Shown in pieces: positions 17,703-21,771 of a stretch of DNA of 46,427 bases. Made by a program: the position numbers and the translations under genes. Source of the stretch: Candidatus Methylobacter oryzae (GTDB taxonomy: Bacteria; Pseudomonadota; Gammaproteobacteria; Methylococcales; Methylomonadaceae). The stretch is from the NCBI GenBank assembly GCA_945861405.1, contig CAMAUL010000018.1, positions 1-46,427 on the forward strand. Direction: 5' to 3'. How positions within the stretch are numbered: position 1 is the stretch's first letter; every line of letters begins with the position of its first letter. Under the pieces are notes generated by a model. The model saw nothing but the letters and a program-made list of their open reading frames with translations. It was not told where the DNA came from and searched no databases.

Positions 17703-20700
17703 TCAACTGGTAATCACAAACCTGACCGCATCCAGCCTTAATTGCGCGGCCTGGATGTTTTCATGCGCCAGCATGGTCATGTCCTTTAGCTGCTCGATTT
17801 CTTCCGTCCTGATGGTCGGATTGACTTTTTTCAGCCTGACCAGACGCTTGATCTCATTGCTAAGCGATTCCAGCATGGCTTGAGTCGCTTCATCGACTAA
17901 CTGCTGCATGTCGGCTTTGGCTTTTTGCTCGGCCACACTCAAGATATTGATCAGGTGCGGACGTTGGCTGTTCAAAAAGGCAATGATTTTATGTTTATCA
18001 AACTTGATACCGGCTTCGACCAAGTCGCGATGCTCAATCGCTGCACTGACATCCTTTTGATTTTGATCGATCAATATTCGAATCGGGGTATGAGGCAGAA
18101 ACCTGCCGATTTGCAATTCGGCGGGCGCACTGCACTCGACTATAAACAAGCACTCCAGCAGAAACTGCCCGGCTTTAAGATTGTTATGTTTGATCACGCT
18201 GATCGCGGCATTGCCGGTTTCAGTGGACAACACCATATCCATGGACGCGGTGACCAATGGATGTTCCCAGGTCATAAACTGCATATCTTCCCGCGCCAAA
18301 GCAATCTGCCGGTTAACGGTGACGGTCATGCCGTCTTCAGTCAATCCGGGAAAATGCGAAACGCGCAAATGATCACTGGGACGGATGATAAAACAATCGG
18401 GCGAATGGAACTCGGTATCCACGCCGTAGCATTCAAAGACATCTTCCATATAAGGCCAAAGTACGCCTTCCTTCTCGTAATTATTCAGCTGATCGATAAG
18501 CTCGTGGGCCAAGTCCTTGCGGCAGGAATTGAGCTCCAGCAATTGATCGCGACCATTATGCATTTGCGCTTCGAGCTCGGCGCTGAGTGCTTGGGTTTTG
18601 GCGATCAGGTCATCGATAGCGGCCTTGCTACCGCTATCCAAAACAGCAGCCAGCTGATCGTGCAGAATATCCGCAACCCGCTGGGCGGATGAGCTATTGC
18701 AGGCAAACGCATTCAGGCCTTCGTCATACCAGCGGTACAACACGGCGCACTCGGTATGTTCCAGATACGGCACATGAATCTGGATAATATGTTTCTGCCC
18801 GATACGGTCAAGACGACCTATACGTTGTTGCAACAAATCGGGATTGGTCGGCAAATCCAGCAGGATTAAATGATGCACAAACTGGAAATTCCGGCCCTCG
18901 CTGCCTATCTCTGAGCAAATCAACAACCGCGCGGCGCTCTCCGGGTCGGCAAAATAAGCCGCCGCCCGGTCGCGCTCGATAATGCTCATGCCTTCATGAA
19001 ACACCGCCGACGCGATACCGGCACGGTTTTTCAAGGTTTGCTCAAAATCAATCGCGGTTTGCGCGTGTTTGCAGATCACCAGCGCTTTATCGCCAGGGAA
19101 GGTGTGTATGCCGTCAGCCAGTCGGGAACTGGCGAGGCGATCGCCAGGGATGGTGTGTATGCCGTCAGTCAGTCGGGAACTGGCGAGGCGATCTCCTGTC
19201 AGCTGTCTAACCTTGTCCACCAGCCACTGGTAGCGCGGGTCTTGCTGCAAGTCATCGTCATTTGCCGACCCTGTTAATGCATAGCCGTAGCGTTCCCGTT
19301 CGGGAAAGCCCTGCACGGTTTGCCGCGAATTGCGAAACAAAATCCGCCCGGTGCCATGGTGATCGAGCAGCACATTAACCAGCGCTTCACGCGCCGCCGA
19401 CTTTTCAGGATCATTCGCCGCACCTGCTCCCGGCAGGTTTGCGGCATACACACCATCCCTGGCGATAGCCTCGCCAGTTCCCGACTGGCTGACGGCATAC
19501 ACACCATCCCTGGCGATAAGATTTTTCAGCAAGCCATCGACATTGTCATCTTTCAGCAACGCGGCTAAATGCTGCTGCGCCTCGTCATCCAGCGTTTCCT
19601 TGGCCAGCAACGATTTGGCCGCATTGGCTACCGGCTCAAACAGGCGTTCTTCTTCAACAAACGCTGCAAAGCTGTAAAACCGGTCGGGATCGAGCAATCT
19701 TAACCGGGCAAAATGGCTTTCCTTGCCCAATTGTTCGGGAGTCGCCGTCAATAAAATAAGGCTGGGGGAAATCTGGGCCAGTTGTTCGACAAACAAATAA
19801 TCTGCGCTGGGCGCTTGTTCGCTCCATTCCAGATGGTGCGCTTCATCGACTATCACCATATCCCAGCCCGCCTCTATCGCCTGCTGCTGGCGACGCGGGT
19901 AATTGGAGAAAAAGCCCTGGCTGCATAAAATCAGTTGTTCGGTTAGAAAGGGGTTATCGGAACCTACATCATCATCGTCCGGGATCGCCAGTAATGGTTC
20001 AGTCTCAGCAAGCATATCGTCTTCGACGCAAGCGCCAAGGCAGCGCGCCTCGTCAAAAATACTAAAACGCAGATTAAAACGCCTGAGCATTTCAACCAAC
20101 CATTGATGCAGCAGCGTTTCCGGCACAATTATCAACACCCGGTTGCTCAAGCCGTTAATCAGCCGGTGGTGCAAAATCAGACCGGCTTCGATAGTTTTAC
20201 CTAAGCCCACTTCATCGGCCAGCATGATTCTTGGCGCCGACCGGTTAGCCGATTCATGCGCAATAAACAGCTGATGCGGAATCAGCGAAGCGCGGCCACC
20301 CAACAAGCCTTTAACCGGCGATTGCTGATGTTGCTGCAATCTGAGCCAGGTTTCATAGCGCAGCAAAAACCAGGCGGAAGGATCGACTTGCCCGATAAAC
20401 AACCGATCCTGGGGCTTGTTAAATTGTATATGATGATTCAGCTCCACCTCATCCAACCGGACTTCCTGTCCATCTTCGTCTTTGCCCAGATAAGTAATCA
20501 AGCCATCCTGCTCAAGCAAGCCGGTGACGGTGACTTTATCCTCGTCTATCGACTCGATAACGTCGCCAGCCGAAAACCGGACGCGCGTTAACGGCGCGTT
20601 ATCTTTCGCATACATGCGCTTTTCGTCACAAGCCAAAAAAAGCACCGTGACCCGCTTGTGCTCTACTTCAAGAATAAGTCCTAATCCGAGTTCCGACTCG

Positions 20701-20741
20701 GTGTTACTAATCCAGCGTTGGCCGGGGATGAACTGTTCCAT
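17703..20741 (-). CDS. rapA: RNA polymerase-associated helicase RapA
   Basis: RapA is a Swi2/Snf2 ATPase that recycles RNA polymerase. The 1012-residue product has Tudor-like N-terminal domains (~1-110), the Walker A motif in LADEVGLGKTIEAGLIL, the DEAH box in IVDEAHHLEW, helicase motifs V and VI in CSEIGSEGRNFQF and QQRIGRLDRIGQ, and the RapA C-terminal region ending LDAVRFVITS. It is ~44 residues longer than E. coli RapA as I recall it. Most of the excess is two in-frame 34-residue insertions made of 51-bp repeats (19089-19190 and 19416-19517). The insertions flank a conserved segment and appear to lie at loops, so the protein is probably still functional. Confidence 0.95.
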   Translation of the reverse strand: MEQFIPGQRWISNTESELGLGLILEVEHKRVTVLFLACDEKRMYAKDNAPLTRVRFSAGDVIESIDEDKVTVTGLLEQDGLITYLGKDEDGQEVRLDEVELNHHIQFNKPQDRLFIGQVDPSAWFLLRYETWLRLQQHQQSPVKGLLGGRASLIPHQLFIAHESANRSAPRIMLADEVGLGKTIEAGLILHHRLINGLSNRVLIIVPETLLHQWLVEMLRRFNLRFSIFDEARCLGACVEDDMLAETEPLLAIPDDDDVGSDNPFLTEQLILCSQGFFSNYPRRQQQAIEAGWDMVIVDEAHHLEWSEQAPSADYLFVEQLAQISPSLILLTATPEQLGKESHFARLRLLDPDRFYSFAAFVEEERLFEPVANAAKSLLAKETLDDEAQQHLAALLKDDNVDGLLKNLIARDGVYAVSQSGTGEAIARDGVYAANLPGAGAANDPEKSAAREALVNVLLDHHGTGRILFRNSRQTVQGFPERERYGYALTGSANDDDLQQDPRYQWLVDKVRQLTGDRLASSRLTDGIHTIPGDRLASSRLADGIHTFPGDKALVICKHAQTAIDFEQTLKNRAGIASAVFHEGMSIIERDRAAAYFADPESAARLLICSEIGSEGRNFQFVHHLILLDLPTNPDLLQQRIGRLDRIGQKHIIQIHVPYLEHTECAVLYRWYDEGLNAFACNSSSAQRVADILHDQLAAVLDSGSKAAIDDLIAKTQALSAELEAQMHNGRDQLLELNSCRKDLAHELIDQLNNYEKEGVLWPYMEDVFECYGVDTEFHSPDCFIIRPSDHLRVSHFPGLTEDGMTVTVNRQIALAREDMQFMTWEHPLVTASMDMVLSTETGNAAISVIKHNNLKAGQFLLECLFIVECSAPAELQIGRFLPHTPIRILIDQNQKDVSAAIEHRDLVEAGIKFDKHKIIAFLNSQRPHLINILSVAEQKAKADMQQLVDEATQAMLESLSNEIKRLVRLKKVNPTIRTEEIEQLKDMTMLAHENIQAAQLRLDAVRFVITS
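19089..19190 (+). repeat. Two tandem 51-bp coding repeats in rapA (orientation 1)
   Basis: Two head-to-tail copies of a 51-bp unit start ATCGCCAGGGA and differ at only two positions. Read in the rapA frame each gives RLASSRLADGIHTIPGD (17 residues, with small changes). They are inserted between VDKVRQLT and KALVICKHA, just before a core strand of the second helicase lobe. The unit carries an internal hairpin GCCAGT-TCCCG-ACTGGC, and adjacent units join to form GGCGATCGCC. Confidence 0.9.
19416..19517 (-). repeat. Two tandem 51-bp coding repeats in rapA (orientation 2)
   Basis: The same 51-bp unit is present in the opposite orientation, again as exactly two copies. The copy at 19467-19517 is near-identical to those at 19089-19190; the copy at 19416-19466 matches at about 41 of 51 positions, diverged in one half. 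In the rapA frame this reads IARDGVYAVSQSGTGEA, then IARDGVYAANLPGAGAA. Both strands of the unit are therefore translated in one protein, with no stop codon. Confidence 0.9.
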
Positions 20742-21387: not shown

Positions 21388-21771
21388 ATGAAAAAATTGC
21401 TTTTTTTGATTCAATTAACGGTTGCAGTAACCCTGTTTTCACCGCTAACTTATGCGGATAGTGATTCGGGGCATCGTGGTTGGGGGCATCATCACCATCG
21501 TCACCATCGTCACCATCGTCATTACGACGATGACGACTATTATGTCCAGCCGCAAGTCAATTACTATTACCAACAACCGCCGGTTCGTTATTACCAACAA
21601 CCTAGATATTCGAGCGATCCACGCTCTCACCAAGGCTTAGCCGGTGGTGTTATCGGTAGCGTATTCGGCTATGAACTGGGTGGTGGCGACCCACTTGCTA
21701 CGGGGCTGGGTGCTGCGGCGGGGTCTTTCTTTGGCAATGAAGCAGGCGGAAATTACCCAGGGAGATGGTAA
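21388..21771 (+). CDS. Glycine-zipper exported protein 2 (His-rich)
   Basis: A 127-residue paralogue of the upstream gene: signal peptide (KKLLFLIQLTVAVTLFSPLTYA), a strikingly His/Asp/Tyr-rich region (WGHHHHRHHRHHRHYDDDDYY, ~30-52) and a C-terminal glycine zipper (GLAGGVIGSVFGYELGGGDP). The His-rich run is encoded by tandem CACCATCGT units (21493-21519). The His and Asp clusters could bind metal, which is inference. An ACGAGGGAA ribosome-binding site precedes the ATG, 65 bases after the first gene, so the two are probably co-transcribed. Confidence 0.8.
   Translation: MKKLLFLIQLTVAVTLFSPLTYADSDSGHRGWGHHHHRHHRHHRHYDDDDYYVQPQVNYYYQQPPVRYYQQPRYSSDPRSHQGLAGGVIGSVFGYELGGGDPLATGLGAAAGSFFGNEAGGNYPGRW

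Follow-up and report, generated by a model that had tools for sequence, protein, structure and literature searches.

The window, by which we mean the whole 46,427-nucleotide stretch of DNA analysed here, carries on its minus strand a 1012-codon open reading frame (positions 17,703-20,741), which was identified as rapA by its translation and by matches to RapA entries in the PDB (best E 2.7e-250). This gene is host to two arrays of a 51-bp repeat. At site 2, two units antisense to rapA occupy positions 19,089-19,139 (left unit; plus strand; matrix score 74.3) and 19,140-19,190 (right unit; plus strand; 77.6), and at site 1 two units on the minus strand, sense to rapA, occupy 19,416-19,466 (right unit, probably the older; 86.9) and 19,467-19,517 (left unit; 77.1). 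A repeat search confirmed the original prediction of two blocks of 2 × 51 bp lying 225 bp apart: the direct units are 96% identical at site 2 and 82% identical at site 1 (in the register of the repeat tool), and both blocks together form a 105-nt inverted pair that is 89% complementary. The 20-bp core of the unit, searched with up to three mismatches, gave four matches in the window compared with none in 100 shuffles. Each array runs head to tail and, as predicted for blocks inverted relative to each other, each is in frame in the 1012-residue translation. The four units are not identical and encode RLASSRLTDGIHTIPGD and RLASSRLADGIHTFPGD at one site and IARDGVYAVSQSGTGEA and IARDGVYAANLPGAGAA at the other; the peptide RLASSRLADGIHTIPGD predicted earlier turned out to be a composite of them. 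The site 1 left unit and site 2 have the GTCAGCCAG..GAGGC variant in common. With a threshold of E 10, an Rfam scan of positions 18,900-19,700 gave four hits, whose scores fell far short of the gathering scores. We also note a small ORF beside rapA (21,388-21,771), in which a hydrophobic N terminus and a histidine-rich tandem stretch can be seen by eye.

The expectation that Escherichia coli RapA is devoid of both segments held in an alignment with the solved RapA 7m8e, which we take to be the E. coli protein and which lacks the blocks of site 1 and site 2. Site 1 falls in a gap between two aligned stretches (query 406|442, 7m8e chain 393|397). At site 2 the 7m8e chain has 23 residues, which equals the host length minus the block, as read by eye from the printed sequences; phmmer itself pairs the block with other residues. 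An AlphaFold2 model of RapA, made from a four-row alignment only, had a mean pLDDT of 32.1 and was set aside.

Empty and filled insertion sites in rapA

To relate the blocks to their orthologues, we compared 21 RapA sequences of the genus, omitting the partial genes of genomes G013 and G017. Site 1 holds two units in the window genome, one in five species and none in 15, and site 2 holds two units in the window genome, a unit and a 25-bp remnant in G018, one unit in six species and none in 13. The blocks are thus not conserved, with 15 of the 21 proteins devoid of block 1 and 13 of block 2. At both sites the gain is exact: site 1 reads CTT|AACG when empty and CTT[51]AACG when filled, and site 2 reads TTT|TTGACC and TTT[51]TTGACC, respectively. 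The left target flank of site 1 in the window is CTT in the sense of rapA (19,518-19,520, minus strand; empty orthologues have, for example, CTT|AACG), and that of site 2 is TTT (19,086-19,088, plus strand), where blockless orthologues read CTTTTTG.. (or a variant) or CTTTATCGCC. No target-site duplication was seen between empty and filled rapA sites, and one-unit gains amount to 51 bp. In G018, the unit and its remnant (76 bp) are accompanied by a loss of host bases, giving a net gain of 69 bp that keeps the frame despite decay.

The right unit of site 1 is 98-100% like the single unit of the compared one-copy orthologues, whereas the left unit occurs, among the 21 proteins, in the window genome only. 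Species with filled and empty sites are interleaved in the rapA tree, which means that gain and loss, or exchange, of the sites took place on more than one occasion. In G021, G002, G009, and G008, the blockless site 2 has TTTATCGCC where others have TTTTTGACC or similar; this could be an excision footprint or the native target, and the rapA tree fits either. Separately, the rapA of Methylobacter sp. C3_concoct.bin.75 (locus L144, 478-3387) has a third filled insertion site, VLASN[IARDGVYAANLPGAGA].

Distribution, fold and target of the 51-bp unit

The genome to which the window belongs (3.58 Mb in 154 contigs, 93.6% complete) and its relatives contain dozens of further copies. In the window genome, BLAST listed 40 matches, a pattern search found 66 (compared with none for the reversed pattern), and a position matrix, built from a set of repeat loci that included window-genome copies, recognised 61 units in 47 arrays and none in the reversed sequence of the same 36 stretches; these stretches were picked around pattern matches, and the census is one of copies within three mismatches of the core. 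Counting the window genome, 22 of the 23 genus genomes searched had matches, with none in G004. At the level of the family, 55 of 237 genomes, belonging to 13 of 29 genera, had matches, the weakest of which (E near 1e-4) may represent chance or distant relatives. Among the matches listed for an exact 21-mer, Methylobacter predominates, with Methylovulum, Methyloglobulus, and unclassified Methylococcaceae also present, and the carriers include a named isolate, Methylobacter tundripaludum SV96. The exact 21-mer did not occur in viral contigs, and distant blastn gave nothing in plasmids and phages. The window-genome arrays are clustered (17 pairs within 5 kb, 3.0 expected); local hopping as the cause was rejected because neighbours are no more alike than distant arrays (P = 0.55). 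One region (C11:9475-15435) has five arrays in 6 kb, with OTCase, RuvX, and TonB family proteins encoded among the adjacent genes. Overall, we consider it very probable that the rapA blocks are copies of a non-autonomous 51-bp mobile element that invades protein-coding genes in Methylobacter and related methanotrophs.

The consensus of the unit starts with ATCGCC (92-99% per position) and ends with GCGGCG (67-94%), and its predicted fold, ..(((((....))))).....(((((..((((((.....)))))))))))., has a small hairpin on the 5' side (CGCCA-GGGA-TGGTG) and a long one on the 3' side. The 6-bp inner stem of the latter is perfect in 165 of 271 units, which use 29 different stems, compared with a mean of 20.6 and a maximum of 37 in a re-paired control, and the four top mutual-information pairs are all inner-stem pairs. 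In a 38-row alignment, 92.4% of paired cells are complementary, compared with 81.8% when shuffled and at most 48.2% when slid, and double changes occur at 12 of 16 pairs. We conclude that compensating changes preserve base pairing in the 3' stem. Support for the 5' hairpin comes mainly from pair 4-15 (GT, GC, TA, AT), and the ends of the unit are complementary over about 4 bp without covariation. The folding energy of the DNA does not choose between the strands because the complement folds almost equally well (z of -3.7, and -3.6 for the unit strand). Stem mismatches are GT in 385 cases and AC in 85, with 229 of the GT at one pair.

The target can be described as T|NNNG. Across 189 arrays (those of 211 without a partial unit at the right, with orthologous sites in different species counted separately), position -1 is T in 184, position -2 is T or A in 179, and position +4 is G in 148. 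In the window genome, a manual count gave T at -1 in 47 of 47 arrays and G at +4 in 40 of 47, a few right flanks starting like a decayed further unit. A wider preference, YTWT|NNNG, is seen in both orientations, and the +4 G is already there in the empty rapA site 1. It is unlikely that T|NNNG arises from codon usage because arrays occur in every phase and both orientations. We conclude that the unit was gained precisely to the right of the T at T|NNNG, without target duplication.

How such a unit moves can be framed as a mechanism in which an enzyme supplied in trans would recognise the hairpins on a single strand and would join the element to its T|NNNG target. IS200/IS605-type chemistry uses end hairpins and inserts 3' of a short specific target without duplicating it. 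The unit could accordingly be a REP-type repeat moved as single-stranded hairpin DNA by an IS200/IS605-like Y1 (HUH) transposase such as a RAYT, a reading that is compatible with a mobile element and that we regard as possible but doubtful. Its two hairpins agree with this, as do the lack of duplicated targets, the position of insertions 3' to a T-rich motif, and the presence of PF01797 proteins in every genus genome (23 of 23); further, the excess of GT over AC stem mismatches points to one structured strand. Against it, none of the 30 Y1 transposase loci of the genus that were inspected (from a longer list) has a unit within up to 1.5 kb on each side, and two Y1 loci of the genus (L306, 1344-2048; L304, 1287-1988) have long inverted repeats of their own, which include GACCCC..GGGTC hairpins and form a family distinct from the 51-bp unit. 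The consensus also has neither a GTAG nor a CGTC tag, and the right flank matters too (+4 G), whereas the IS608 scheme, in which the cleavage site lies inside the element, predicts a free right flank. The copy-rich genomes G005 and G010 have one Y1 match each, and neither a transposition event nor an autonomous parent element was seen.

Another enzyme, such as a tyrosine recombinase whose non-homologous crossover spans 3 bases, or a reverse transcriptase copying a short structured RNA primed at the T, would be equally compatible with a mobile element but seems unlikely to us. The left (T-ATC-G) and right (G-NNN-G) junctions can be read as fixed and target-derived 3-base segments, and partial units that retain the left part exist; however, loss of a hairpin explains partial units equally well, and the balanced orientation to the host gene described below speaks against this option. 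In one case (L040 of G002, minus-strand match 1501-1576), a unit ends after 25 bp at GTAGCGGCGACCGGCCGGTCGCCGCTAC, and the sequence resembles a GTAG-type REP inserted at the hairpin of the element.

Host genes, reading frames and tandem arrays

In the window genome, 45 of the 47 arrays lie within stop-free frames of at least 160 codons. Random insertion of the genome's own units at T|NNNG would give 79.3% (P = 0.0016), and the difference is marginal against the 87.8% for random insertion before any loss (P = 0.063). In other genomes the same holds for 131 of 137 testable arrays, i.e. 164 unique arrays minus 27 close to the end of a locus. A manual count showed that 34 of the 47 window-genome arrays have at least 40 codons on either side; the remaining 13, with fewer than 40 codons on one side, may be close to or past a terminus, and some of them may be outside the true protein. 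Mapping the copies in ORFs showed all six reading frames to be represented, though unevenly. In other genomes, phases 0, 1, and 2 account for 61, 3, and 7 sense and 33, 4, and 23 antisense arrays. In the window genome, 18, 1, and 2 sense arrays compare with the 13.2, 3.4, and 7.2 that a simulation of insertions into weighted target sites predicts, and 15, 0, and 9 antisense arrays with 13.0, 1.6, and 6.6. The three rare frames combined are seen 3 times in the 45 arrays against 12.2 expected (P = 0.0006), a depletion that we read as the loss of frames bringing stops or awkward peptides. Orientation to the host gene is balanced in the window genome, with 21 sense and 24 antisense.

Pfam families were matched by 38 of 40 host ORFs scanned from the 43 distinct ones, the scan leaving out a 39-codon ORF, an ORF cut by a contig end, and RapA; L229 and L262 had no Pfam match. 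From the families, we presume the hosts to include PurH, MinC, the β and χ subunits of DNA polymerase III, UvrD, a SufB/SufD protein, RecO, RuvX, ValRS, and pyruvate dehydrogenase E1. There are two insertion sites in valS, which is the sole valS above the cut-off in the window genome, and dnaN, likewise represented by one match, carries two units between residues aligned to 96 and 102 of the solved clamp. We infer that the inserts are translated into the host proteins and tolerated because single, open copies of core genes would otherwise be hard to explain. For RapA site 1 and the β clamp, the insert stands in an alignment gap relative to solved homologues, a position that would fit loops as a matter of agreement, not proof. 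Because 51 is 3 × 17 and stops are few, insertion adds 17 codons per unit and leaves the gene unbroken; insertions with harmful peptides would be lost. That the unit equals 17 codons and seldom brings a stop would explain why copies persist even in single-copy core genes.

The original prediction that a third frame of the repeat is also open was right but understated the case: of 271 distinct 51-mers, 59% can be read without a stop in every one of the six frames, compared with 7% of shuffles. We considered and rejected the idea that the stop-free unit is an adaptation to coding, as intergenic relatives are open in six frames too (70% of the 20 units of f119). All-six-frames-open units make up four of four in G253 and eight of eight from other genomes and are scarce elsewhere (none of nine in G176, one of six in G338); none was found among 11 slices, with approximate ends, of an intergenic relative from G063. 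Stop-free frames therefore probably predate the coding habit.

It is very improbable that the element owes its persistence to a benefit for the host, whether its hairpin served as a regulatory RNA or its peptide as a useful linker. Its structure is strongly conserved, and the depletion of three frames suggests that either stops or the encoded peptide are under selection; but the selection detected is negative, the hosts are unrelated, either strand is used, presence and absence are scattered among close species at rapA, and one genome of the genus (G004) has none.

Among 206 arrays, 131 are single units, 57 have two units, and 18 have three to five. Units are spaced by 51 bp in 97 of 99 cases and by 54 bp in two, all multiples of three, and neighbours in an array are on average 87% identical, compared with 82% for random units, with 27 of the 99 pairs at 95% or more. 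The unit itself starts with ATCG, so each insertion recreates a T|NNNG target (T|ATCG) at the occupied site, and tandem arrays could be favoured in this way. That the regenerated target drives leftward growth of arrays is a possibility on which the evidence is mixed. The left unit is nearer the consensus in 49 of 75 multi-unit arrays (the right in 25), and rapA site 1 fits leftward growth in that its right unit is the one common to single-copy species; in contrast, in 99 pairs of orthologous sites with unequal copy number, which are not independent, the shared unit is like the left, the right, or neither in 33, 33, and 33. A general leftward polarity, supported by site 1 and the score asymmetry but not by this comparison, is therefore no more than a possibility.

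That the blocks are an intragenic minisatellite, made by local tandem duplication through slippage with no mobile element, is hardly credible: head-to-tail units with a 51-bp period would be expected from it, but the unit is found at 47 places in the window genome in both orientations, 131 of the 206 arrays are single units, and empty sites reveal the gain of one whole 51-bp unit. As the sole explanation it is refuted by the dispersed single copies, while the greater likeness of units within an array suggests that some amplification is probably local and that part of the array growth likely occurred by slippage.

Relatives in other Gammaproteobacteria and known repeat families

A DNA-level search of 369 genomes of the class matched nine, including the window genome and mostly weakly; the two-hairpin relatives required a covariance model. 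This model, built from 38 units and giving rough E-values (short calibration), matched 26 of 274 class genomes in 24 genera and 11 of 299 genomes sampled across the phylum, all 11 of the same class. At 42 places in ten other genomes, the relatives have hit lengths of 48-55 bp: 14 are 49 bp, 13 are 52 bp, nine are 51 bp, one is 48 bp, and the others are 50 or 55 bp, such that 32 of the 42 lengths are not divisible by three. Six of the 42 lie in frames of at least 160 codons, and four of these in frames of at least 200 (manual count). Two-hairpin repeats are thus widespread and lie mostly between genes, and the methanotroph 51-bp subfamily is the one that occurs mainly within them. Triplet length as the sole difference was rejected, since the nine relatives of 51 bp and the one of 48 bp are mostly intergenic, which makes the move into genes proposed below slightly less likely. 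In G063, of another genus in the same family, 11 relatives are in frames of fewer than 180 codons, and the genome also has a three-unit 51-bp array in a 468-codon frame and one lone unit close to the beginning of a frame of 158 codons.

Some further observations concern these relatives. Those at L329, L374, L376, L377, and L348 directly follow the T-run of sequences that look by eye like terminators. At L378-L387 of G063, a related intergenic repeat, CCCATGGATGGGGTGAATGCAGAGAAATGACGGGATCATTTCC, is embedded in a longer stretch of conserved sequence, in a genome that also has the 51-bp coding class. L346, L350, L353, and other f119 relatives end in GACG, the complement of which begins with CGTC, the tag of CGTC REPs in the available text of PMC3733652.

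Tentatively, and as a proposal that may well need revision, we suggest a two-hairpin mobile family across Gammaproteobacteria, mostly intergenic and about 48-55 bp long, of which a methanotroph 17-codon subfamily would have moved into genes, where it would persist by translation-neutral insertion and be moved by an enzyme not yet described, one able to join a folded strand to a T|NNNG target and leave that target unduplicated. We found no earlier description of the 51-bp repeat in the literature searched, which covers few subscription papers. The persistence of mobile DNA inside genes by translation is best described in Rickettsia, as far as the accessible text of PMC10969869 shows. The methanotroph repeat offers free-living carriers with named isolates, sharp insertion rules, and empty sites in close relatives, and its intergenic relatives, mostly of non-triplet length, are a natural comparison for the coding subfamily. 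One can thereby test how often selfish DNA gives rise to new stretches of protein, in which loops an arbitrary peptide of 17 residues is tolerated, and which enzyme moves such elements. For annotators, inserts in methanotroph ValRS, β clamp, and similar proteins are repeats and not functional domains.

Among known systems, the Wolbachia palindromic elements bear a likeness to the 51-bp repeat. The unit shares with elements derived from IS200/IS605 the lack of target duplication, a position 3' of a short target, and hairpins, and differs in its constrained right flank (+4 G in 148 of 189). Like bacterial MITEs (Correia/NEMIS, ERIC, RUP), it is a small non-autonomous mobile repeat; most MITEs have terminal inverted repeats, TA ends, and target duplications according to the available text of PMC2229807, whereas the unit has no target duplication and no TA ends. 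PARCEL repeats, thought mobile, are likewise tandem, palindromic, and protein-coding, but have, in what is accessible of PMC2996958, a 25-residue amphipathic motif in variable-number tracts within ORFs without assigned functions, whereas our unit has 17 codons, uses six different frames, and is inserted in conserved core proteins. GTAG/CGTC REPs are described in the accessible parts of PMC3733652 as short hairpin repeats with alternative complementary stems, some of them intragenic in several species, and the unit resembles them in its stems and, like the rarer REPs, in being intragenic. It differs in having two hairpins where a REP has one, in the absence of a GTAG/CGTC end tag from its consensus, in being mostly intragenic where REPs are predominantly extragenic, in having no RAYT neighbour (0 of 30 Y1 loci, flanks up to 1.5 kb), and in its common head-to-tail units, such dimers being absent, under-represented, or negligible in most families of that source as far as its text was available. 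Rickettsia palindromic elements are, in the portions available of PMC2229807 and PMC10969869, small inverted-repeat elements found in frame in many unrelated conserved genes, of 105-146 bp (PMC2229807) or about 150 bp (PMC10969869) with 12-bp terminal inverted repeats. The 51-bp unit too inserts in frame in many unrelated ORFs (45 of 47 arrays in its own genome, 131 of 137 elsewhere). By the same partial sources, it differs in size, falling outside 105-146 bp with a net insertion of 51 bp at empty sites, and in its ends, which show about 4 bp of complementarity beside two separate hairpins where the Rickettsia elements have terminal inverted repeats of about 12 bp; it differs also in its tandems, its T|NNNG target, and its free-living gammaproteobacterial hosts. 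The suggestion of a protein-invading family in another lineage, comparable to the Rickettsia elements, is thus supported in the sense of a counterpart and not of a member: size, ends, and tag exclude the unit from the Rickettsia palindromic elements and the REPs, and it belongs to a known kind, the protein-coding mobile repeat.
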